From NCBI RefSeq assembly GCF_024228315.1, contig NZ_CP100455.1, positions 496,001 to 560,000 on the forward strand: 64,000 nt of DNA, in the 5' to 3' direction. The notes beneath the pieces are model-generated. The model searched no databases. It was not told the origin of the DNA and worked only from the letters and a program-made list of their open reading frames with translations. Numbering within the stretch: the stretch's first letter is position 1; each line of letters begins with the position of its first letter. Shown in pieces: positions 5,646-64,000 of the stretch. The stretch is from Halomarina pelagica (GTDB taxonomy: Archaea; Halobacteriota; Halobacteria; Halobacteriales; Haloarculaceae). Position numbers and translations under genes: made by a program.

Positions 5646-6998
5646 ATGGACCGGCACAGCGCAGCGCCCGACACGGGCGCGTTACCGGGACCGAACGCGC
5701 GGAAGTGGATCGAGTTCCACGCGGAGCACGCCGCCCCGAGCGAGTACTCACACGAGTTCGTCTGGGACGTCACCGCCGAGGCGGACGGGCCGTTCGTCAC
5801 CGACGTCGACGGTAACGTCTTGCTGGACTTCACGTGTCACATCGGTGCCGCGCCGCTCGGCTACAACAACGAGAAGATCCTCTCTAGACTGCGTGAGTTC
5901 GACCTCGTCGAGCCGATGAAGATCGCCGGGCAGGACATGTACTTCGGCGCGGGGGCGGACCCGGAGACGGCGGCGTTCCCCGGCTCCAGCCACCTGATGG
6001 AGCGGCTGGTCGAGGTCTCGGACCACTACGGGATGGACACCGTCTTCCTCTCTAACTCCGGCGCGGAGGCCGTCGAGAACGCGACGAAGATCGCCCACGA
6101 CCACAGACCCGCGGCCAAGTACGCCTTCGCGTTCGAGGGGAGCTTCCACGGCCGCACCCTCGGCACCCTCTCTCTCACCAACTCGAAGGAGGTGTACACG
6201 CGCCACTACCCGGAGATCGCCGGCGTCAGGACGCTCCCGTTCTGCGACTGCGCGGACGCCGACACCTGCGAGTGCGGGTTCGCCCGCGGCGGCGGATCGC
6301 TGTTCCGCGACACGTTCGCGCCGGAGGGCGGCCACGTCAACCCCGAGGAGGTCGCGTTCGTGATCCTCGAACCGATCCAGGGCGTGGGCGGCTACCGCTT
6401 TCCGAACCGGGAGTTCGCGGCCGAGGTCGGCGACGTCTGCGCGGCGTACGACATCCCGTTGATCGTCGACGAGATCCAGTCGGGCGTCGGCCGCACCGGC
6501 GAGATGTGGGCCGCCGACCACTACCCGATGGAACCCGACGTCATCGCCAGCGCCAAGGGGCTGCGCGTGGGCGCGACGATCTCGCGCGCCGAGATATTCC
6601 CCTCGGAGAAGAACCGCCTCGGGTCGACGTTCGGCGGCGGCGACCTCCTCGCCTCGATGCAGGGGGCGCTCACGCTCGAGGCCATCGAGGAGCACGACCT
6701 CCTCGACAACGCGACCGAGCGGGGCCGACAGGCGACCGAACTCCTCCGCGACGGCGCGCCCGACGGCGTCGTCGACGTGCGCGGGCTGGGGCTGATGCTC
6801 GCCGTCGAGTTCGACACGCCCGAGCGCCGCGACGCCGTCGTCGAGGCGGCGCTCGCCCGCGGGTTGCTCACCCTCGGGTGCGGGAAGAAGACGGTCCGCC
6901 TGCTCCCGCCGCTCGACGCGACCGAACGCGAGATCGAGATGGGCGTCGGCATCCTCCGCGAGGCGATGGCGGCGGTCGCGGCGACGCCCGCTACCTGA
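5646..6998 (+). CDS. Class III PLP aminotransferase (acetylornithine/4-aminobutyrate type)
   Basis: 450 residues. A TTTAA element at 5616-5620 lies about 27 bases before the ATG, predicting a leaderless transcript. The PLP site motifs are LIVDEIQSGVGRTG (Asp) and ASAKGLRVG (Schiff-base Lys), with SNSGAEAVENATKIA near residue 140 for phosphate binding. An unusual cysteine-rich insert reading CDCADADTCECGF lies in the middle; I do not know its role, and four closely spaced Cys could bind a metal. The 3' end overlaps the convergent dehydratase gene by eight bases. The amino donor cannot be assigned. It is not a recent duplicate of the upstream aminotransferase, since motifs and length differ. 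Confidence 0.85.
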   Translation: MDRHSAAPDTGALPGPNARKWIEFHAEHAAPSEYSHEFVWDVTAEADGPFVTDVDGNVLLDFTCHIGAAPLGYNNEKILSRLREFDLVEPMKIAGQDMYFGAGADPETAAFPGSSHLMERLVEVSDHYGMDTVFLSNSGAEAVENATKIAHDHRPAAKYAFAFEGSFHGRTLGTLSLTNSKEVYTRHYPEIAGVRTLPFCDCADADTCECGFARGGGSLFRDTFAPEGGHVNPEEVAFVILEPIQGVGGYRFPNREFAAEVGDVCAAYDIPLIVDEIQSGVGRTGEMWAADHYPMEPDVIASAKGLRVGATISRAEIFPSEKNRLGSTFGGGDLLASMQGALTLEAIEEHDLLDNATERGRQATELLRDGAPDGVVDVRGLGLMLAVEFDTPERRDAVVEAALARGLLTLGCGKKTVRLLPPLDATEREIEMGVGILREAMAAVAATPAT

Positions 6999-8271
6999 GA
7001 TCGCCGTCCGAACCGTGCCCGACGACGGCGCACCCGTCGAGGTCGTCGAGCGCGTCGAGCACGTCCCCGAGGTGGGCGGGGCCGCTCCCCTCGACGCCGA
7101 TCCGGACCGGCGTGCGGTTGGGGTCGTCGCCCGCGCCCGGTCGAGCGCGTTCGAGGGCGTCGAGTTCCGCGCCGCGGTCCTCGACCGTCCGGGTCACGTC
7201 GCCGAGGACGGTCGGCCACCCCGCGAGTTCGAGGCGCGCCTCGGCGTAGCGACCGAGTTCCGCGAGGCCCATTCGAGCGAGTTCGGCGTGGTCGGTGAGG
7301 TTCGCGTTCCCGCCGGAGACGACGGCGGCGACCCGCTCGCCCTCGACGTCGACCGCGCCCGAGAGGAGCGCGGCGACCGGTGCAGCGCCGGCCGCCTCCG
7401 CGACCGTCTTCGCCCGCTCGGCGAGCATGGCCGTGGCGACCGCGAGGTCGGCGTCGCGCACCGCCACGACGTCGTCGACGCGCTCGCGGATCACGGCGAA
7501 CGTCCGCTCCAGCAGCCGGGCGTCCGCGATCCCCTCGGCGACGGTGTCGACCTCGGAGCGCACGTGGATCTCGCCGCGGTCGAGCGACGGCTTCGCGTGG
7601 GCGGCCCCCTCGGGCTGGACGCCGACGACGCGCACGTCGGGGTCGCGCGCCTTCAGGGCCGTCGCGATCCCGGAGATCAACCCGCCGCCGCCGATCGAGA
7701 CGAGGACGGTATCGAGCCCCGGGACCTGCTCCCCGAGTTCGAGGCCGACCGTCCCCTGCCCGGCGATGACGTCCCCGTCGTCGAACGGGTGGACGAACGC
7801 CAGGTCCTCCCCCTCCGCGAGGTCGAGCGCGCGCTCGTAGGACCGCTCGTAGTCCGCCCCCTCGACGACGACGCTCGCGCCGTAGCCCCGCGTGGCCTCG
7901 ATCTTCGCCGCGGGCGTCACCTCGGGGACGACGACGGTGGCGTCGACGCCGAGCAGCCGACCGGCGAGCGCGACGCCCTGCGCGTGGTTGCCGGCGCTGG
8001 CGGTGACGACCCCGCGCTCCCGAACCGCCGGGGGGAGCCGGGCCATCGCGTTGTACGCGCCGCGGATCTTGAACGAGCCGGTGCGCTGTGTGTTCTCCAG
8101 CTTGAGCCAGACCTCGGCCGCGCCGCTGCGCTCCGCGAACGTGGTCGACCCGTCGACGGGCGTCCGGTGGACGACGTCCGCGAGGCGGTCGCGGGCGTCT
8201 TCGACGTCGGCGAGCGTGACGACCTCGTCCGCCGCCGGGATCGCGCCGTCGGAGCCCGACGACGGGCTCAC
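6991..8271 (-). CDS. Threonine ammonia-lyase / hydroxyectoine-dehydratase-like PLP enzyme with ACT-like C-terminus
   Basis: 426 residues from a GTG start whose GTGA overlaps the stop of the upstream M20 gene, so the two are translationally coupled. It is a fold-type II PLP enzyme: the lysine is in TGSFKIRGAYN (K68), the tetraglycine phosphate loop is SIGGGGLISG near residue 190, and SGGNANL lies near the end of the catalytic domain. Residues after about 340 resemble an ACT regulatory domain. The nearest familiar activity is threonine to 2-oxobutyrate plus ammonia (TdcB/IlvA). EutB of hydroxyectoine utilisation belongs to the same family but, as I recall, is shorter and lacks ACT. Coupling to an amidohydrolase and the nearby RidA and M24 genes favour a catabolic role over isoleucine synthesis; this is inference. 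Confidence 0.85.
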   Translation of the reverse strand: MSPSSGSDGAIPAADEVVTLADVEDARDRLADVVHRTPVDGSTTFAERSGAAEVWLKLENTQRTGSFKIRGAYNAMARLPPAVRERGVVTASAGNHAQGVALAGRLLGVDATVVVPEVTPAAKIEATRGYGASVVVEGADYERSYERALDLAEGEDLAFVHPFDDGDVIAGQGTVGLELGEQVPGLDTVLVSIGGGGLISGIATALKARDPDVRVVGVQPEGAAHAKPSLDRGEIHVRSEVDTVAEGIADARLLERTFAVIRERVDDVVAVRDADLAVATAMLAERAKTVAEAAGAAPVAALLSGAVDVEGERVAAVVSGGNANLTDHAELARMGLAELGRYAEARLELAGWPTVLGDVTRTVEDRGAELDALERARPGAGDDPNRTPVRIGVEGSGPAHLGDVLDALDDLDGCAVVGHGSDGDLR

Positions 8272-54426: not shown

Positions 54427-55188
54427 TCAGGAGTACTTCAGGTTGATGCTGATGACGTTGGCCGCGCGTTCGACGAGTTCGGGGACGTCCGATTCGAGTC
54501 GTTCGCCCTTCATCCTGCTCGTGGGGCCCGCGATGCTGACCGCGCCGTACGCCACGCCGCCGTTCGTGGTCACGGGGGCGGCGACGCACCGGATCCCCTC
54601 CGCGCGCTCCTCCATGTCGTAGGCGTAGCCCCGCTCCCGGATCGTCGCGAGTTCCTCGCGGAGGTCGTCGCGGTCGGTGATCGTGTGCGCCGTGGACGCC
54701 GGGAGTCCCTGCACGTCGACGATCGACTCGACGCGCTCCTCGGGGAGGAACGCCAGGATCGCCTTCCCGAGCGCGGTGCTGTGTAAGTTCACCCGCGAGC
54801 CGATGCCCGTGTCGAGCGTCAGCGCCTGCGACCCCTTCGCGCGGTGGAGGTAGACGCCGTGGCCGTGCTCCTCGACGAGGATGTTGGCGATCTCGCCGGT
54901 CTCTGCGGCCAGGCGGTCGATCTCCGGCACGCCGATCTCGTAGATCTTCTTCCGACTCCGCACGTACTCCCCGACCTCGAAGAAGAGTAACCCGAGGCGG
55001 TAGACGTCCCCGTCGCGGACGACGCACTCGTGCTCCTCGAGCGTCGCGAGGTGGTTGTGCACCGTCCCCTTCGTCAGCCCGAGGTGGTCCGCCACCTCGG
55101 TCACCCCGGCCCCGTCTAACTCGCGTAGCGCGTGGACGATCCGAATCGTCGTCCCCACCGACTTCACCGGGTTTTTCGCTTCGTTCAT
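54427..55188 (-). CDS. IclR family transcriptional regulator
   Basis: 253 residues from MNEAKNPVKSVGTT. Winged helix (VTEVADHLGLTKGTVHNHLATL) and effector domain (NLHSTALGKAILAFLPEE, IRCVAAPVTTNGGVAYGAVSI). It lies 279 bases from the divergent SDR-FAH-enolase operon and is the likely regulator of it. Confidence 0.93.
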   Translation of the reverse strand: MNEAKNPVKSVGTTIRIVHALRELDGAGVTEVADHLGLTKGTVHNHLATLEEHECVVRDGDVYRLGLLFFEVGEYVRSRKKIYEIGVPEIDRLAAETGEIANILVEEHGHGVYLHRAKGSQALTLDTGIGSRVNLHSTALGKAILAFLPEERVESIVDVQGLPASTAHTITDRDDLREELATIRERGYAYDMEERAEGIRCVAAPVTTNGGVAYGAVSIAGPTSRMKGERLESDVPELVERAANVISINLKYS

Positions 55189-55432
55189 GGGTACGCGATG
55201 CCCGTCCGGGTACAAAAAGCTTGTTTAGTAACTCCAAACGCCCGACGGCACGCGCTGCCCTCACAACGACGAGCGATAGTGATAATACCGTGGATATCAC
55301 CGAAATGGGCGGAAAGTGCCAGAGGATCTGAGGGTGAGCGGTTTTCCGATGCTAAACAGAGCCGACGACCGCGAACGGGGACGGCCGACGGCGTCGGTCG
55401 ACCGTGAGACGCCGTCCGAACGGAAGAAGAGC

Positions 55433-55438
55433 TTTATA
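55433..55438 (+). promoter_or_regulatory. TATA element of the SDR-FAH-enolase operon
   Basis: TTTATA at 55433-55438 is about 30 bases before the ATG at 55468, predicting a short or absent leader. Confidence 0.55.
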
Positions 55439-55467
55439 CCACCGCTCGTAACTTGATCACGTCAGTC

Positions 55468-56259
55468 ATGGATCTAGAGATAACGGGAAATACCGCTCTG
55501 GTCACGGCATCGAGCAGCGGCCTCGGGAAAGCCTCGGCGAAGGCGCTCGCCCGCGAGGGTGCGAACGTCGTCGTGAACGGTCGCGACGAGGACCGACTCG
55601 CCGAGGCCGTCGGCGACGTCGAGGCGGTCGCGACCGGCGAGGTCGTCGGCCACCCCGGCGACCTCACCAGGGAGGAGGACGTCAGCGCGCTCGTCGAGCG
55701 GACGGTCGACGAGTTCGGGGGGATCGACCACCTGGTGACGAGCGCCGGGGGACCGCCGAGCGGGCCGTTCCTCGAGACTGACGAGGACGACTGGTACGAC
55801 GCGTTCGACCTCCTCGTGATGAGCGTCGTGCGACTCGTCCACGAATCGGCGGACTACCTCCGGGCCGACGGCGGCGGTACCGTCGTCACCATCACCTCGC
55901 GCAGCGTGAAGGAGGCGATCGACTCGCTAGTGTTGTCCAACTCGGTCAGGATGAGCGTCGTCGGACTGGAGAAGACCCTCTCTACGGAACTCGCGCCCGA
56001 CGTGCGCGCGAACGCCGTCCTGCCGGGGCCGCACGAGACCGCGCGGATCCGCGAACTGGTCGAGCAGTCGGTCGACCGGGGCGAGTACGGCTCCTACGAG
56101 GAGGGACTGGAGGCCCGCGGGTCCGGAAACCCGATGGGACGGATCGGCGACCCGATGGAACTCGGCGACCTCGTCGCCTTCCTCAGCTCCGAGCGATCCA
56201 GCTACGTCAACGGCGTCGCGATCCCCGTCGACGGCGGTGCGGGCAGTTCCAACCTCTAG
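55468..56259 (+). CDS. Atypical short-chain dehydrogenase/reductase without the YxxxK pair
   Basis: 263 residues. Rossmann motif TASSSGLGKASAKAL (a variant of TGxxxGxG), NNAG-region equivalent LVTSAGGPPSGPF, and C-terminal VNGVAIPVDGG are clear. The catalytic Ser may be in ITSRSV, but where YxxxK should lie the sequence is SNSVRMSVVGLEKTL, placing Ser and Arg at the Tyr and Lys positions. Such variants exist in the SDR superfamily and may not be ordinary oxidoreductases. Its position next to an FAH-family hydrolase suggests the role of a 2-keto-3-deoxy-sugar-acid dehydrogenase; the missing catalytic pair argues for caution. Confidence 0.85.
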   Translation: MDLEITGNTALVTASSSGLGKASAKALAREGANVVVNGRDEDRLAEAVGDVEAVATGEVVGHPGDLTREEDVSALVERTVDEFGGIDHLVTSAGGPPSGPFLETDEDDWYDAFDLLVMSVVRLVHESADYLRADGGGTVVTITSRSVKEAIDSLVLSNSVRMSVVGLEKTLSTELAPDVRANAVLPGPHETARIRELVEQSVDRGEYGSYEEGLEARGSGNPMGRIGDPMELGDLVAFLSSERSSYVNGVAIPVDGGAGSSNL

Positions 56260-56261
56260 CA

Positions 56262-57083
56262 ATGCCGCACCTCGCACGGACGACCGACGGGACCGCACTG
56301 CTCGGCGACGGCGATCGGTTCGTTCCGCTGGCCGCCGCGGAGCCGTCGCTCTCCAGCGTGAGCGACGCCCTCCCCCGGGCGGCGGCGGGGACGCTCCCCG
56401 AGTGGAAAGGCGCGCCGGCGAAGGCGCGGCCGGCGTCGTCGTTCTCGTTCGCGACGCCCCTCGAGACCCCCGGGAAGCTCTGGGGCATCGGCCTGAACTA
56501 CGCCGATCACGCGGCGGACCTCCGGGAGGACTGGCCCGAGGAGCCGGCCAGCTTCATGAAGCCCGCGACGGCGGCGACGGGACCGGAGGGACCGATCACC
56601 CTCCCTCCCCGGGAACTCTCCGATCGGGTGACCGCCGAGGCGGAACTCGGCGTGGTCATCGGTCGCACCTGCTCCGACGTCGGCCGGGAGGAGGCCGAGG
56701 ACGTCGTCGCGGGGTACGTCCCGGTGATCGACATGACGGCGGAGGACATCCTCGAGCGGAACCCGCGCTTTCTGACCCGCTCGAAGAGCTTCGACTCCTT
56801 CATCGTCATCGGGCCGTGGATCGCGACGACCGACGAGGTCGAGTCGCTCGACGACGTGACGGTGCAGACGATCGTCGACGACGAGGTCGTCGCGGAGAAC
56901 GAGGTCCGGAACATGATGACGCCGCCGCGCGACCTCGTCTCGTTCCACTCGCGGGTGATGACGCTCTCGCCGGGCGACGTCATCTCGACCGGGACGCCCG
57001 GCGCGTACCCGATCACCCCCGGAGACCGGGTGACCGCGCGGGTCGAGGGGGTCGGCGAGGTCTCGGCGGACGTCGTTCGGTGA
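56262..57083 (+). CDS. Fumarylacetoacetate hydrolase (FAH) family protein
   Basis: 273 residues starting three bases after the SDR stop. The FAH fold shows KLWGIGLNYADHA, metal-ligand Glu residues in AEAELGVVIGRTC, then DMTAEDI, KSFDSFIVIGPWI and STGTPGAYPITPGD. The family cleaves C-C bonds of 1,3-diketo acids, isomerises or decarboxylates related compounds. In an oxidative sugar pathway it would cleave a 2,4-diketo-3-deoxy acid to pyruvate and a hydroxy acid. Confidence 0.9.
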   Translation: MPHLARTTDGTALLGDGDRFVPLAAAEPSLSSVSDALPRAAAGTLPEWKGAPAKARPASSFSFATPLETPGKLWGIGLNYADHAADLREDWPEEPASFMKPATAATGPEGPITLPPRELSDRVTAEAELGVVIGRTCSDVGREEAEDVVAGYVPVIDMTAEDILERNPRFLTRSKSFDSFIVIGPWIATTDEVESLDDVTVQTIVDDEVVAENEVRNMMTPPRDLVSFHSRVMTLSPGDVISTGTPGAYPITPGDRVTARVEGVGEVSADVVR

Positions 57084-57164
57084 CGCGCCGGCGGCTCGAC
57101 CCCGCCGAGCGGCCCGTTGACGAAACACTCTTTACCCTCCTGCCGAATGGTGTCAAACGCACTC

Positions 57165-58268
57165 ATGGAAATCACCGAAGTGGAAAGCTTTGCGGTCTCC
57201 ATCCCGCTGAAGGAGCCGGTGGCGTTCGCGACGCGGGTCGTCGAGGAGCGCGACCACGCGATCGTGTACGTCCGCACCGACGACGGGACGGAGGGACTGG
57301 GGTACACCCTCGGGTACGGCGGCGCGGACGTCATCGCGCAGGCGGTCGAGTCGGTGCTCGAACCGATGCTCGTCGGGGAGGACCCACGCGACACCGAGCG
57401 CCTGTGGCGCGAGATGTTCGACGGCACCGTCCAGATCGGCCGGAAGGGCGTGATGGTGCGCGCCATCTCGTGCATCGACATCGCGCTCTGGGACATCAAG
57501 GCGAAGGCCGCGGGCCAGCCCCTCTACAAGTACCTCGGGGCGTACACCGACGAACTACCGGCGTACGCAAGCGGCGGGTACTACCGGGAGGGCAAGGGCC
57601 TGGAGGGCCTCCGCGAGGAGATGCGGACGTACGTCGACCGGGGTCACGACGTCGTGAAGATGAAGGTCGGCCGGAAGTCCCTCGAGGAGGAGGTCGAGCG
57701 GGTCCGCGTCGCCCGGGAGGCGATCGGTCCCGAGCGGACGCTCCTGCTCGACGCGAACGGCAAGTGGAAGAACAAACAAGAGGCGGTCCGCGCCTGCCGC
57801 CGGTTCGCGGCGTACGACCCCTACTTCATCGAGGAGCCGGTGATGCCCGACAGCGTCGACCTCATGCGCGAGGTCAACGAGTCGCTCGACTACGCCGTCG
57901 CGGCCGGCGAACTGGAGTTCTCGCGGTACGGCTTCGCCCACCTCCTCCGCGAGGGTGCCGTCGAGATCGTCCAGCCCGACGTGACCGTCGTCGGCGGCGT
58001 CACGGAGTGGATGCGCGTGGCGAACACGGCGAACTCCTACGACGTCCCCATCGCGCCGCACTACAACTGGGACCTCCACATCCAGCTGCTCGCGGCCGTC
58101 GAGAACGGCCTCTTCATCGAGTTCTTCTACCGCGACTCCGACGTGAAGGCGTTCGACGACGTCCTGAAGCACCCCATCGAACCCGAGGACGGCGTGATTC
58201 GACTCCCCGACCGGCCGGGCCACGGCGTGGAACTCCACGACGACAGGCTCGATCAGTTCCGCATCTGA
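57165..58268 (+). CDS. Enolase-superfamily enzyme (mandelate racemase/sugar-acid dehydratase group)
   Basis: 367 residues from MEITEVESF. Active-site candidates: K165 and K167 of VVKMKVG, metal ligands D196 (LLDANGKW), E223 (FIEEP), E249 (AAGELEF), and H299 of APHYNW. The KxK plus His arrangement fits mandelate-racemase-group enzymes, including dehydratases of L-rhamnonate or L-fuconate, but I cannot name the substrate. It is distinct from the DgoD-type protein at 43512-44660. A gap of 81 bases after the FAH gene contains CTTTACC, a possible weak promoter. Confidence 0.88.
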   Translation: MEITEVESFAVSIPLKEPVAFATRVVEERDHAIVYVRTDDGTEGLGYTLGYGGADVIAQAVESVLEPMLVGEDPRDTERLWREMFDGTVQIGRKGVMVRAISCIDIALWDIKAKAAGQPLYKYLGAYTDELPAYASGGYYREGKGLEGLREEMRTYVDRGHDVVKMKVGRKSLEEEVERVRVAREAIGPERTLLLDANGKWKNKQEAVRACRRFAAYDPYFIEEPVMPDSVDLMREVNESLDYAVAAGELEFSRYGFAHLLREGAVEIVQPDVTVVGGVTEWMRVANTANSYDVPIAPHYNWDLHIQLLAAVENGLFIEFFYRDSDVKAFDDVLKHPIEPEDGVIRLPDRPGHGVELHDDRLDQFRI

Positions 58269-58288
58269 GCGCCGTCCCCCGCTCGCGG

Positions 58289-59011
58289 TTACAGGACGTA
58301 CCGCTCGCCGACGTCGAGCGGGCGGATCTCGGGCCGTCGGGACCGGTCCACTCGCCCGTCGAGTTCGGCCTCGAAGGCCTCCACCTCGCCGCTGCCGGGG
58401 ACGTAGTGGACGGGGACGATCGTCTCCACGTCCAGCCACGACGCGGCGACGGCGGCGTCGTCCGGCGGGAGCGGGGCGAGATCGCCCGGCGCGCCGCCGA
58501 CGGGCAGCAGCACCGTGTCCGGTTCGTATCGCTCGGCGAACAGCCGGAGGTCGCCGAACAGCGACGTGTCGCCGGCGTAGTAGAGGCTCCGCTCGGGGAA
58601 GCCGAAGTAGAAGCCGAGGGGCATCCCCGACAGCCGGTCGCCGCCGGACTCGAAGTACGAGAGGTGCCGCGTCTCGAGGACCCTGATCTCGATCCCGGCC
58701 TCCTCGAAGGTGTTGCCCCAGATCACGCTCCGAACCCGCTCCGGCGGCACCCCTTCGTCGCGGAGGTGATCCGCGAGGGCCGGTTCGGTGATCACGGTCG
58801 CGCCTGACCGGGACGCGATGGCGCGCGTGTCGCCGACGTGGTCGTACGCCCCGTGGGTCACGAAGACGTAGTCCACGTCCTCGAAGTCCTCGACCGTGAG
58901 CGACGACCAGTCCGGCTCCTCGATCCACGGGTCGACCAGTAGTCGGGTCCCGTCGAATTCGATCTCGAACGACGAGAGCCCGTAGTAGGTGAGCGTCGGT
59001 TCCGAGTGCAT
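58289..59011 (-). CDS. Metallo-beta-lactamase-fold hydrolase with altered metal motif
   Basis: 240 residues, similar in layout to UlaG/YtkL-type MBL proteins. The motif HxHxDH appears as HGAYDH (H53 to H58), so the second His is Ala. Later ligands look intact: TRHLSYF, YYAGDTSLF and PVHYVPG. Residues for one metal site remain. Lying convergent with the enolase gene in a sugar-acid cluster, it could be a lactonase, as UlaG is; that is inference. Confidence 0.85.
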   Translation of the reverse strand: MHSEPTLTYYGLSSFEIEFDGTRLLVDPWIEEPDWSSLTVEDFEDVDYVFVTHGAYDHVGDTRAIASRSGATVITEPALADHLRDEGVPPERVRSVIWGNTFEEAGIEIRVLETRHLSYFESGGDRLSGMPLGFYFGFPERSLYYAGDTSLFGDLRLFAERYEPDTVLLPVGGAPGDLAPLPPDDAAVAASWLDVETIVPVHYVPGSGEVEAFEAELDGRVDRSRRPEIRPLDVGERYVL

Positions 59012-59166
59012 CGCTACCGACTGCGCGAGCGAACTACATCAATCCGCCGGGTCCGACGCCGGCGGTGGTCAGGGGAGCGGATCGGGGCGAGCGAGCGACC
59101 CTGGCGACCCCGAACGTCCCGACTTCCCACCGAATCTTTAATACCGCTCTCGGAAATTCGACTCGT

Positions 59167-60024
59167 ATGGACGTCCTGTTGACTGGCGCGTTCGGTCGCG
59201 TCGGCACCGCCATCATCGACCACCTCGCGCCGCGCGAGGAGTACGACTTCACGTATCTCAACCGAAGCGACCGACCGGAGTACGACACGTTCGTCGCCGA
59301 CGTGTCCGACTACGAGGCGATCCGTCCGGCCTTCGAGGGCACGGACGCCGTGATCCACCTCGCCGGGTACCCCGAGACCGACGGCACGTGGGAGCAGGTC
59401 CTCGACAACAACCTCGTCGGCATGGAGAACGTCCTCCGGGCGGCCCGCGACGCGGCCGTCGAGACGTTCGTCTTCGGCTCGACGAACCACGTCGTCGGGA
59501 TGTACGAGGTCGACGACGCCCCGGCGATCTACGAACCGGACTTCGACCTGACCGTCGATCACACGGCCCCCCACCGGCCGGACTCGTACTACGGCTCCTC
59601 GAAGTGCTTCGACGAGGATCACGGGCGATTCTACGTCGAGAACTTCGAGTACCCCGAGCGGTTCTACGCGCTGCGCATCTGCAGCGTCCGCCACGAGGAG
59701 TACGACCACCCCTACGGCGACGCCGAGCGCGGCGTCGACCGCGGGGACTGGGAGCGCGGGAGCGACGAGTACGAGGAGATGGTCGCGCGGATGAAGGCGA
59801 TGTGGCAGTCGCGGCGCGACCTGGCGCACATGGTCGAGTGCTGTCTCCGGGACGACTCCGTCGAGTTCGACGTCTTCTACGGGGTCAGCGACAACGACCG
59901 ACGGTGGTTCGACATCGACCACGCCCGGGAGGTCATCGGATACGACCCGCGAGATAACGGCGAGGAGTGGGACGCCCCGCCCGAGGAGACGCGGGGGACC
60001 GGTGGAGGAGGTGTGAGCCGATGA
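59167..60024 (+). CDS. NAD-dependent epimerase/dehydratase family; uronate- or glucose-6-phosphate-dehydrogenase-like
   Basis: 285 residues. TTTAATA at 59137-59143 is exactly 27 bases upstream of the ATG, predicting a leaderless mRNA. Rossmann motif LLTGAFGRVGTAI, Asp-ribose contact in VADVSDYE, FGSTNHVVG for the Ser, and catalytic YYGSSK (YxxxK). The order resembles uronate dehydrogenases and the haloarchaeal Azf glucose-6-phosphate dehydrogenase. It would oxidise a sugar or uronate at C1 to a lactone. Its stop overlaps the nucleoside hydrolase ATG, so both are co-translated. Confidence 0.88.
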   Translation: MDVLLTGAFGRVGTAIIDHLAPREEYDFTYLNRSDRPEYDTFVADVSDYEAIRPAFEGTDAVIHLAGYPETDGTWEQVLDNNLVGMENVLRAARDAAVETFVFGSTNHVVGMYEVDDAPAIYEPDFDLTVDHTAPHRPDSYYGSSKCFDEDHGRFYVENFEYPERFYALRICSVRHEEYDHPYGDAERGVDRGDWERGSDEYEEMVARMKAMWQSRRDLAHMVECCLRDDSVEFDVFYGVSDNDRRWFDIDHAREVIGYDPRDNGEEWDAPPEETRGTGGGGVSR

Positions 60025-60962
60025 CGCGGAAGCTGCTCCTCGACGTGGACCCCGGACTCGACGACGCCCTGGCGGTCCTCATGGCGCTCGGGAACGACTC
60101 GGTCGAGGTCACCGGCCTGACGACGGTGATGGGCAACACGACGATCGACAACACCACGCGGAACGCGCTCGCGCTGCTCGAGTTCGTCGGGCGGAGCGAC
60201 GTCCCCGTCGCCAGGGGTGCCGCGCGGCCGCTTGCGGACGACCTCGTGATGGCCGAGTACGTCCACGGCCCCGGCGGCGTGCCGGAGCCGGTGCGAGACG
60301 TGCTCCCCGAACCGACGACGCGACCCGTCGACGCGCACGCGGCGACGTTCATCGTCGAGCAGGCGCACGAGTACGGCGAAGAACTCACGATCGCCGCCGT
60401 CGGCCCCCAGACGAACGTCGCGCTCGCACTCGCGCTCGAACCGGAACTCCCCGATCTCATCGGGGGCGTCCACCAGATGGGCGGGGCGCTGAAGACGACG
60501 GGGAACGTGACGCCCCAGGCCTCGTTCAACTTCTACGTCGACGCCGCGGCCGCCAGCCGCGTCGTCCAGGAGGCGTCCCCGCACGTCGTCGGTCTCGACG
60601 TGACCGAACCGGGGTACCTCCCGCCGGAACTGCACGACACCTTCGCGGACGGCACCGAGTACGGGCGGATGATCTTCGACGTCCTCGACTACAAGGCGCA
60701 GGGACCGGACGGGGTCGTAGCGGAGGGCGGCGCCATCGTCAGCGACTCGGTCGTCCTCGCGGGGATGCTCGACGCGGACGTGCTGACCTTCGAGGACGCG
60801 TACGTCGAGATCGACACGAGCGGCGGGCCCTCGAACGGCGCGACCGTCTACGACGAACACGGCGTCTACGGCGAGGACCCGAACTGCCACGCCGCGCTGA
60901 ACGTCGACGTCGATCGGTGCCGGGACGTGATCGTCTCCAGCCTGAAGAGCGCCGCTCCCTAG
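60021..60962 (+). CDS. Nucleoside hydrolase (inosine/uridine-preferring family)
   Basis: 313 residues. The calcium-binding signature DVDPGLDDALAVL opens the protein, with VMGNTTIDNTTRNAL, AVGPQTNVALAL and the C-terminal YGEDPNCHAALNVD following. The family cleaves the N-glycosidic bond of ribonucleosides to base plus ribose. ATGA overlap with the upstream gene and a GGAGGTG site at 60006-60012 support the start. An ECF importer lies 0.5 kb downstream, so salvaged nucleosides could be its substrates. Confidence 0.92.
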   Translation: MTRKLLLDVDPGLDDALAVLMALGNDSVEVTGLTTVMGNTTIDNTTRNALALLEFVGRSDVPVARGAARPLADDLVMAEYVHGPGGVPEPVRDVLPEPTTRPVDAHAATFIVEQAHEYGEELTIAAVGPQTNVALALALEPELPDLIGGVHQMGGALKTTGNVTPQASFNFYVDAAAASRVVQEASPHVVGLDVTEPGYLPPELHDTFADGTEYGRMIFDVLDYKAQGPDGVVAEGGAIVSDSVVLAGMLDADVLTFEDAYVEIDTSGGPSNGATVYDEHGVYGEDPNCHAALNVDVDRCRDVIVSSLKSAAP

Positions 60963-61009: not shown

Positions 61010-61468
61010 ATGGACCGAATACTCGTCGTCGCTGAGCCGTCGGAGTCGGGCGTCGCGCTCGTGGAAGAGGCCGGCCGCGTCGCGGCGGAAACGGACGCCG
61101 GGGTCGTCGTCCTCGCTCCGGTCGTCGAAGGGGAGGAAGACGAGTGGCTCGACGCGATACGCGAGACGACGGACCTCGCGGACGAACGGGAGCCCTCCTC
61201 GCCCGTCGGGGACCTCGCGCGCCGGTTCGCCGACTCGCTCGGGAGTGACGTGCTGGCTCCGCTCGGCGTCGAGTACCTCGCGATCGGCGACCACGTAGAG
61301 ACGAACAGACCGTCGGCGGAGATCATGGGCGTCGCGGAGAACCACGCCTGCGACTACATCTACCTCCTCACTCATCGCCGGTCGCCGACCGGGAAGGCGA
61401 TCTTCGGCGACACCGTCCAGTCGGTCATCCTCAACTTCGACGGATACGTCACCGTCACGACGCGGTAG
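61010..61468 (+). CDS. Universal stress protein (UspA) family
   Basis: 152 residues, cytoplasmic. N-terminal MDRILVVAEPSESG and the C-terminal nucleotide-binding-like segment RRSPTGKAIFGDTVQSVIL resemble the G2xG9xG(S/T) pattern, slightly altered. A TTAAAAA element at 60981-60987 lies 27 bases upstream of the ATG, so it is transcribed separately as a leaderless mRNA. Confidence 0.82.
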   Translation: MDRILVVAEPSESGVALVEEAGRVAAETDAGVVVLAPVVEGEEDEWLDAIRETTDLADEREPSSPVGDLARRFADSLGSDVLAPLGVEYLAIGDHVETNRPSAEIMGVAENHACDYIYLLTHRRSPTGKAIFGDTVQSVILNFDGYVTVTTR

Positions 61469-61519: not shown

Positions 61520-62161
61520 ATGTCAAGCACTGAAGCCAAGACGACGGCCAAGAGAGACGTCGGTTTCGTCGAGCGGTTCCGGGAGAGCGTCGGCGAGGAC
61601 TTCACGATCACGACGTGGGTCCTCATCCCGATCGGGATCGGCATCAACGCCATCGGCGGGTTCATCGCGAGCACGCTCAAGCTACCGCTGTTCCTGGACA
61701 ACATCGGGACGATGCTCATCGGGATCCTCGCGGGCCCGTGGGCCGCGATGCTGACCGGGGGGTTCGCGAACGTCATCCAGGCGATGCTCGGCAACCCGGT
61801 GCAACTGGCGTTCCTCCCGGTTCCGGTGGCGATCGGGTTCGTCACGGGGGTCCTCGCGCGGCGCGGGTGGTTCGACAGCCCGAAGAAGGTCGTCGTGCCG
61901 GCGCTCGTGTTGACCGTCGTCGCGACGCTCATCGCGACGCCCATCGTCGTGCTCGTCTTCGGCGGCGTCACGAGTTCCGGCACCAGCCTCGTCACCGCGA
62001 CGCTCGTCGCGACCGGCCGCAGCCTGGTCGAGAGCGCCGCCTCCGCGCAGTTGATGGTGGAGTTCGTTGACAAGGGCGGGTCGGCGTTCGTCGCCTACTT
62101 CATCGGGCGATCCGTCCCCACGCGCTACCTGCCGCCCCAGGGGCAAGATATTTATTCGTAG
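61520..62161 (+). CDS. ECF transporter substrate-binding S component
   Basis: 213 residues with about six hydrophobic segments; the motif INAIGGFIASTLKLPLFLDNIGT followed by GPWAAMLTGG is typical of ECF S components. It captures a vitamin-like or nucleoside-like substrate. Followed by EcfT and EcfA, it forms a dedicated (group I) system. A nucleoside hydrolase is encoded 0.5 kb upstream, which hints at a nucleoside or its base; not proved. Confidence 0.88.
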   Translation: MSSTEAKTTAKRDVGFVERFRESVGEDFTITTWVLIPIGIGINAIGGFIASTLKLPLFLDNIGTMLIGILAGPWAAMLTGGFANVIQAMLGNPVQLAFLPVPVAIGFVTGVLARRGWFDSPKKVVVPALVLTVVATLIATPIVVLVFGGVTSSGTSLVTATLVATGRSLVESAASAQLMVEFVDKGGSAFVAYFIGRSVPTRYLPPQGQDIYS

Positions 62162-62231: not shown

Positions 62232-63005
62232 ATGGCTGAGCGATCCATCTACCAGCCCGGCGAGAGCGTCCTCCACCGACTCAACCCGGTGACGACGTTC
62301 GTCCTCGCGGCGTGTCTCTCGGTCGTCGTGTTCGTCGTCCCCGACTACCGGCTCCCGCTGGGCCTGTCGATCGTTCTGCTCGCGCTCGTGTTCGTCGCCC
62401 GGGTCCACCGGCTAGTCCTCCGGCTGGTCGCGGCGCTCGCGATCCCGTTCGCGTTCTTCCTCCTGCTCATCCACGGGGTCCTCAACCCGGGACCGCAGGC
62501 GGAGCCGCTCGTGACGATCGGGCCGGTGACGGTCTGGGAGGCGGGGTTCGAGACCGCGCGGCTGATCTTCCTGCGCATCCTCGTGCTCATCCTGTCGTTC
62601 CTGCTGTTCGCCACCACGAGCCAGCCACAGCGGATGCGCGTCGCGCTGATGGAGAAGGGTGTCCCGAACAAGCTCGCGTACGTGTTCATCGCCTCGCTCC
62701 AGATCATCCCCGAGATGCGCACCCGGGCGAAGTCCATCGCCGACGCGCAGCAGGCGCGCGGTCTCGACATCCACGCGGACATCAGGACTCGAACGGGGTC
62801 GATCGTCGCGCTGATGGCACCGCTCCTCATCGGCACCCTCATCGCCGCGAACACGCGGGCGCTCGCCCTCGACGCGCGCGGGTTCGACGCGTCCGGCGAG
62901 CGGACGTTCCTCTACGACGTCCCCGACACCGGCGGCGAGCGACTCCTCCGGTACGCCGCGGTCGTCGCCGTGTTCGGCGCGCTCGCGTGGAGGCTCCTCC
63001 CATGA
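62232..63005 (+). CDS. ecfT: ECF transporter transmembrane T component (EcfT)
   Basis: 257 residues. Begins YQPGESVLHRLNPVTTFVLA, the usual EcfT start, with several hydrophobic helices, and holds two coupling Arg motifs: KSIADAQQARGLD and ALALDARGFD (the A-R-G pair that contacts the ATPases). Its stop overlaps the ATPase ATG by four bases. Confidence 0.93.
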   Translation: MAERSIYQPGESVLHRLNPVTTFVLAACLSVVVFVVPDYRLPLGLSIVLLALVFVARVHRLVLRLVAALAIPFAFFLLLIHGVLNPGPQAEPLVTIGPVTVWEAGFETARLIFLRILVLILSFLLFATTSQPQRMRVALMEKGVPNKLAYVFIASLQIIPEMRTRAKSIADAQQARGLDIHADIRTRTGSIVALMAPLLIGTLIAANTRALALDARGFDASGERTFLYDVPDTGGERLLRYAAVVAVFGALAWRLLP

Positions 63006-64000
63006 CGCTGATCGACGTGGACGACGTGACGTTCCAGTACGCCACGCAACCCGACGACGAGTACGCGGTGCGGGACGTCAGCTGCGAGATCGACGCCGGG
63101 AGCTTCGTCGGTATCACCGGTCCGAGCGGTGCCGGCAAGGCGACGCTCTGTCGGTTGATCGCGGGGCAGATCCCCCACTTCTACACCGGGGAGCTGAGCG
63201 GGTCGGTCACCGTGGACGGAACGCCGACGAGCGACGAGTCGCTGGGCGACCTCTCGAAGCGGATCGGGTTCGTCTTCGAGAACCCGTACGACCAGCTCAC
63301 GGGCGCGACCTCGACCGTGCTGGAGGAGGTCGCGTTCGGGCTGGAGAGCAGGGGTTTCAGCCGGGACGAGATGCGGGAACGCGCCAGGGAGAGCCTCGCC
63401 GCGATGGGCGTCGAGACCCTCGTCGACCGCGACCCGCAACAGCTCTCGGGGGGGCAGTGCCAGCGCGTGGCCATCGCGTCCGTGCTCGCGATGCAGCCCG
63501 AGATCCTCGTCCTCCAGCAGCCGACGGCGCAGCTCGACCCGGAAGGGACCGACGAGGTGTTCGACGTCGTCGGCCGGATGAACGAGGAGGGGTACACCGT
63601 GGTGATGGTCAGTCAGGACCTCGAACGGCTCACGCCGCTCCTCGATCGCCTCCTCGTGATGACAGAGGGGAGGATCCGACTCGACGGTCACCCCGAGGAG
63701 GTCCTCCTCCGCGCCGCGGACGACGACCTCCCGGTCGTCGTCCCGAAGACGATCGCCGTCGGTCGTCGCCTCCGCGAGGCGGGGTACGTCCCCGCGGACG
63801 AGTCGATCCCGGTAACGGAGGAGGGCTGTCTCGCCGAACTTCAGCGGGCGATCGGTCGCTCCATCTCGCGGGAGGGATCGAGCGTCGACGCCGGTACGGA
63901 CGGGAACCGACGGAGCGTGGACGACGTGGACGAGAGTGCGCAGATCGTCCTCGACGGACTCCACTACAGCTACCCGAGCGGCGTCGAGGCCCTCAGCGAC
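63002..64000 (+). CDS. ECF transporter ATPase (EcfA), first domain degenerate, C-terminus cut by window edge
   Basis: 333 codons are visible. The first ATPase domain has Walker A GPSGAGKATL (A47 replaces Ser/Thr), signature LSGGQCQRVAIA (intact), Walker B ILVLQQPTAQLD (Q172 and Q173 replace Asp-Glu), and switch region VMVSQDLERL (Gln replaces His). After a linker, a second domain begins at about residue 316 (IVLDGLHYSYPSG) and runs out of the window, so this is a fused two-ATPase chain. The intact signature of domain 1 would still complete the active site of domain 2. Substrate is set by the S component upstream. Confidence 0.88.
   Translation, partial: MTLIDVDDVTFQYATQPDDEYAVRDVSCEIDAGSFVGITGPSGAGKATLCRLIAGQIPHFYTGELSGSVTVDGTPTSDESLGDLSKRIGFVFENPYDQLTGATSTVLEEVAFGLESRGFSRDEMRERARESLAAMGVETLVDRDPQQLSGGQCQRVAIASVLAMQPEILVLQQPTAQLDPEGTDEVFDVVGRMNEEGYTVVMVSQDLERLTPLLDRLLVMTEGRIRLDGHPEEVLLRAADDDLPVVVPKTIAVGRRLREAGYVPADESIPVTEEGCLAELQRAIGRSISREGSSVDAGTDGNRRSVDDVDESAQIVLDGLHYSYPSGVEALSD

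Follow-up and report, generated by a model that had tools for sequence, protein, structure and literature searches.

A fused ECF ATPase from haloarchaea with one predicted degenerate and one complete ATP site

The stretch of DNA analysed here (the window; 64,000 nucleotides of Halomarina pelagica, G000:C2:496001-560000) ends inside an operon for an ECF transporter (Table 1). The ATG of its EcfA1-A2 gene, at 63002, overlaps the stop codon of EcfT, and the gene exits the window at position 64000 with 759 further bases to contig position 560759 (L031:3002-4759); this 3' remainder was read from the host genome. The product, of 585 amino acids, carries two ECF ATPase domains in a single chain with a variable linker between them, and it scores 418 bits against both TIGR04520 (cut-off 315) and TIGR04521 (cut-off 330), so that two ECF-type ABC ATPases are present. 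Its AlphaFold model has a mean pLDDT of 88.9, with residues 287-308 disordered. EcfT contains both ARG coupling motifs, at residues 175 and 215, and therefore the two XRG motifs of such proteins. The membrane S component, identified by PF12822, is a relative of the CD3073 family that falls outside it by the curated rule, since its score against NF045596 lies below the cut-off of 180, although the alignment spans nearly the whole model. The predicted structure of this protein resembles ThiT, FolT and RibU, and its 16 best structural matches are all S-component or ECF entries, with E-values above 0.01.

Table 1. Genes and motifs at the ECF locus. Positions refer to the window, except for the one prefixed L031.
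Feature	Position	Strand	Evidence or remark
IclR regulator	54427-55215	-	
SDR	55453-56259		
FAA-hydrolase family enzyme	56262-57083		
MR/MLE-type dehydratase	about 57165-58268		
Metallo-beta-lactamase-fold protein	58289-59011	-	
Azf-like NAD-dependent dehydrogenase	about 59167-60024		
Nucleoside hydrolase 1	60021-60962	+	PF01156, 258 bits; DVDPGLDD motif
Universal stress protein	61010-61468	+	PF00582; same place in relatives' operons
S component, CD3073-like	61520-62161	+	PF12822 above cut-off; NF045596, 123 bits
EcfT transmembrane coupling protein	62232-63005	+	PF02361, 104 bits (cut-off 25)
EcfA1-A2 fusion	63002-64000	+	Residues 1-333 of 585; TIGR04520, TIGR04521; two ABC_tran stretches
Domain 1 Walker A, GPSGAGKATL	63119-63148	+	Mg-binding Ser/Thr to Ala (codon 63140-63142); Lys kept
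Domain 1 Q-loop, FVFENPYDQL	63269-63298	+	Gln to Glu (63278-63280); FVFENP versus FVFQNP
Domain 1 signature, LSGGQ	63443-63457	+	Intact; completes ATP site 2
Domain 1 Walker B, EILVLQQPTAQLD	63500-63538	+	Asp-Glu to Gln-Gln (63515-63520)
Domain 1 switch, VVMVSQDLER	63599-63628	+	His to Gln (63614-63616); VSQD
Nucleoside hydrolase 2	L031:4808-5764		264 bits; directly after the EcfA1-A2 gene

The gene neighbours suggest that the importer probably takes up nucleosides. The DxDxxxDD motif is retained in both nucleoside hydrolases. Relatives conserve the S-T-A gene order together with the nucleoside hydrolase genes, and in the haloarchaeal clade described below the block reads MLE, dehydrogenase, hydrolase, Usp, S, T, A, hydrolase. 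A nucleoside hydrolase gene also adjoins the S gene in several loci of Bacillota (several Lachnospiraceae and one Bacillota MAG). Nucleosides would be imported and cleaved to base and ribose, and the ribose would then be broken down oxidatively. The genes at 54427-60962, taken with L031:4808-5764, resemble a diketo-hydrolase oxidative sugar pathway, perhaps for nucleoside-derived ribose. Salvage of queuosine, for which QueK is a nucleoside hydrolase, was considered and set aside as nothing at the locus points to it; haloarchaea use archaeosine. The operon is a patchy, replicon-borne trait: it is absent from seven sampled genomes of the genus Halomarina, its host contig in H. pelagica measures 617 kb, and in three Haladaptatus species it lies on plasmids of 0.5-0.6 Mb (L066, L141). 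Haladaptatus caseinilyticus has a relocated S gene, which lies after the second nucleoside hydrolase (L141:9532-10161) instead of ahead of the T gene; the product is more diverged, with 54% identity to the S component of the window.

The initial annotation, made from the letters of the window, had described an ATPase whose first domain has lost four catalytic positions while keeping an intact LSGGQ signature. The signature and all four replacements are as described: Ala stands in place of the Walker A Ser/Thr, and Gln in place of the Walker B Asp, the catalytic Glu (the stretch reads VLQQPTAQLD) and the switch His. A fifth loss, that of the Q-loop Gln, had been missed. Domain 2, which lay largely beyond the window and had been proposed as the place to look for intact motifs, has an intact Walker A (GQNGAGKSTL), Q-loop (LSFQNPDDQL) and Walker B (VVLDEPTSGQD), and keeps the His of its switch (THD). 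Its signature, however, is gone, with YDLSEAWRKR at the position of LSGGQ, and this is the only motif that domain 2 has lost. The ATP sites of ABC proteins are composite: one domain contributes Walker A, Walker B and the Q-, A- and H-loops, and its partner contributes the signature (PMC7544095). Because the signature of domain 2 would complete site 1, the same site is predicted to be dead on both of its faces. As read from the motifs, site 1 is without its Mg ligands (Ser/Thr, Q-loop Gln and Walker B Asp), its catalytic Glu, its switch His and its trans signature, and site 2, built from the motifs of domain 2 and the LSGGQ of domain 1, is complete, with nothing lost.

This division holds across the family. 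When ten key positions of each site were scored in 39 related ATPase pairs, site 1 was non-canonical in 173 of 390 cells, corresponding to 17 parsimony changes, and site 2 in none of 390. In EcfA1-A2, one composite site combines a non-consensus signature with a missing catalytic Glu and the other is fully consensus, in agreement with the one degenerate and one working ATP site that had been predicted. Neither domain varies at the Walker A Lys or the A-loop Tyr, which makes nucleotide binding at site 1 plausible. His to Gln by itself is weak evidence and not diagnostic, because the His is kept in one member of the clade (L114) and because Gln occupies the switch position in several other ATPases of the host genome, which presumably are LivF-like. 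In other haloarchaeal ECF pairs, one of them in the host genome (L126, G000:C1:111500-117000; L041; L042), the Q-loop of the first ATPase is altered (VLDSPENQ, VFSDPELQ) and the second has FSKGQ or LTKGL as its signature, and partial asymmetry may thus be wider among haloarchaeal ECF modules.

Relatives were collected by a genome scan and from haloarchaeal genomes, and a maximum-likelihood tree was built on 392 columns from which every motif column had been removed. A mixed alignment with the separate bacterial genes placed domain 2 rows on domain 1, and was left out of the tree and the model. Read along the tree, the motifs support an ordered series of losses, beginning with the domain 2 signature, followed by the Q-loop and then by Walker A and B in one haloarchaeal clade. 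The signature of domain 2 is lost in all 36 ingroup pairs, Bacillota included, and domain 1 of the Bacillota members is otherwise canonical, except for a variable fourth Gly of the P-loop. The CD3073-type pairs of Bacillota (L065, L070, L078, L083 and others; about 6842-7683) illustrate this half-degenerate state, with Walker B, Q-loop and switch residues kept and a second ATPase without LSGGQ (DVPYSTRKF, DLPLSIRKF). A Streptomyces plasmid copy with HHLSLGD, which stands outside the tree, may represent an earlier stage of signature loss. The change of the Q-loop Gln to Glu is common to one Chloroflexi MAG and all haloarchaeal ingroup members; it is the least secure step of the order, as it depends on a single long-branched Chloroflexi row and a node support of 84/75. 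In haloarchaea the two genes are fused, the His has mostly become Gln, and the fourth P-loop Gly is often changed. Finally, the Walker A Ser/Thr became Ala and the Walker B DE became QQ or RQ in a single clade with a support of 100/99, which has six rows on the tree and with which further loci (L134-L137, L141) agree. The annotation had singled out GKAT and LQQP as motifs whose conservation in haloarchaeal homologues should be informative: GKA and xQP are present in every member of this clade, with Arg in place of the Walker B Asp in three rows and Gln in three, whereas the sister haloarchaeal clade keeps the Walker B DE. Together with the Q-loop Glu, they recur in eight species. The carriers are Halomarina pelagica, Haladaptatus litoreus, H. 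pallidirubidus, H. halobius, H. caseinilyticus, Halegenticoccus tardaugens and two further genomes; the sequences of H. halobius and of H. caseinilyticus were inspected separately from the tree.

Among known systems, the canonical group II ECF transporters (EcfA-EcfA'-EcfT, such as ECF-FolT2 and CbrT of Lactobacillus delbrueckii) share with this one the ECF ATPase families, an EcfT with XRG motifs and the S-component fold. All the motifs are stated to occur in both EcfA subunits of one structurally described system (PMC4820897), whereas here one composite site is lost and the ATPases are fused. The nearest bacterial relatives, the CD3073-type ECF transporters of Bacillota, have likewise lost the domain 2 signature, but they have separate ATPase genes and their domain 1 keeps the Walker A Ser/Thr, Q-loop Gln, Walker B DE and switch His that are lost here. 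The exporters TM287/288, BmrCD, TAP, BSEP, CFTR and Pdr5 offer the same arrangement, a degenerate site made of the NBD1 Walker motifs and the NBD2 signature next to a consensus site, in proteins of another fold; every human degenerate site has a changed NBD2 signature, and Pdr5 has changes in all motifs (PMC7756269), including loss of the Walker A Lys, which is kept here. Such asymmetry had been considered unusual for ECF importers and familiar from exporters. Our search of the open-access literature found no degenerate ATP site reported for an ECF transporter, and no paper under the CD3073 name. The comparison with exporters has to be widened, since one degenerate site is also described in each of the fused Bacillus importers RbsA and NupO (PMC11466899). 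NupO imports guanosine and is without the Walker B Asp and Glu (PMC11466899). RbsA and NupO, for ribose or guanosine uptake, thus resemble EcfA1-A2 in their fused ATPase domains and single degenerate site, but they are type II importers with binding proteins and their degeneracy affects the second Walker A, with loss of the Lys, whereas here S and T components are present, the first domain is affected and both Walker A Lys residues remain.

We consider it likely that EcfA1-A2 powers a dedicated ECF importer, probably one specific for nucleosides, and that this importer has turned into a machine with obligate asymmetry. From the motifs, hydrolysis can be expected from site 2 only, and one ATP would be spent per cycle. 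Site 1, which retains its A-loop Tyr and Walker A Lys, could still bind nucleotide and serve the dimer as a hinge or glue, by analogy with exporters with degenerate sites, whose domains are proposed to be held together by ATP bound at the dead site (PMC5216877; PMC7756269). In the ECF module of Lactobacillus, the ATPases close when they bind Mg-ATP, and the S component is thereby expelled (PMC10368641); here, hydrolysis at site 2 would reopen the dimer and reset EcfT for the S component. Since replacement of the catalytic Glu by Gln in either EcfA or EcfA' severely impairs uptake by a canonical module (PMC10368641), operation with a single working site would need compensation. In ABCB1 and ABCB11, ATP becomes trapped and transport ceases when only the catalytic Glu is lost, and transport by ABCB1 with this Glu replaced is restored by a changed signature and changed Q-loop-adjacent residues of the same site (PMC7544095). 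The order found in the tree (signature, Q-loop, catalytic Glu) fits this logic by analogy: early loss of the signature would have blocked ATP occlusion in site 1, and we propose that the later loss of its catalytic residues was therefore tolerated.

Other readings have to be weighed against this one. Sequencing error or chance is excluded by the recurrence of GKA, xQP and the Q-loop Glu in the eight species; the 41 distinct other ABC domains read in the host genome all retain both the Ser/Thr of Walker A and the Asp-Glu of Walker B. A domain without catalytic residues could also belong to a dying gene or a pseudogene with fixed damage, but the 585-residue frame is open, the partner genes are intact and the state is shared by eight species. 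In close Haladaptatus pairs, moreover, domain 1 has a dN/dS of 0.04-0.05 and domain 2 one of 0.06-0.085, while that of the linker is about 0.3; both domains are under equally strong purifying selection, with values far below 1, and decay of the gene is very improbable. Neither of the outcomes that the initial annotation had named as fatal to its reading, an equally degenerate domain 2 or variants absent from relatives, was encountered.

It is possible, although we do not favour it, that constraint was only relaxed: site 1 would have become useless after the signature was lost in a bacterial ancestor, its residues would have drifted, and it would now be functionless and may not bind nucleotide. 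The sequence in place of the signature does differ freely from one relative to another (YDLSEAW, YDFGEPW, YDLVISW, DVPYSTRKF), and about six changes have occurred at the P-loop Gly of domain 1. The Walker A Lys and A-loop Tyr, however, never change, and the new residues are fixed within the clade, with GKA and xQP in all members, rather than scattered. An improbable alternative is that site 1 might have acquired an unusual chemistry, such as Mg-free nucleotide binding in which Mg would be replaced by the Gln or Arg found where the Walker B Asp used to be. Alteration of all three Mg-ligand positions, with Arg and Gln shared equally among the six rows, points in that direction, whereas the catalytic Glu, the His and the trans signature have been lost as well. 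The preferred reading, an obligately asymmetric importer, could be extended to an ECF importer running on one ATP per cycle, in which site 1 is a static, possibly Mg-free nucleotide clamp with Gln or Arg in place of the metal, a state arrived at through losses in a fixed order and in parallel with the unrelated fused nucleoside importer NupO; we offer this extension tentatively, as doubtful in its full form.

How much ATP an ECF transporter spends per substrate, and how labour is divided between its two sites, is unsettled: both catalytic glutamates matter in the Lactobacillus module, yet a turnover structure has hydrolysis in one site only (PMC10368641). The family described here provides natural intermediates, from pairs that have lost the signature but have intact Walker halves (Bacillota), through the change of the Q-loop, to full loss (Haladaptatus and Halomarina pelagica), and one-site operation and the order of compensation are therefore directly testable. 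Degeneration of the site formed by the NBD1 Walker motifs and the NBD2 signature is not peculiar to exporters, and NupO, without its Walker B Asp and Glu, is a notable parallel to this fused, putative nucleoside ECF importer.
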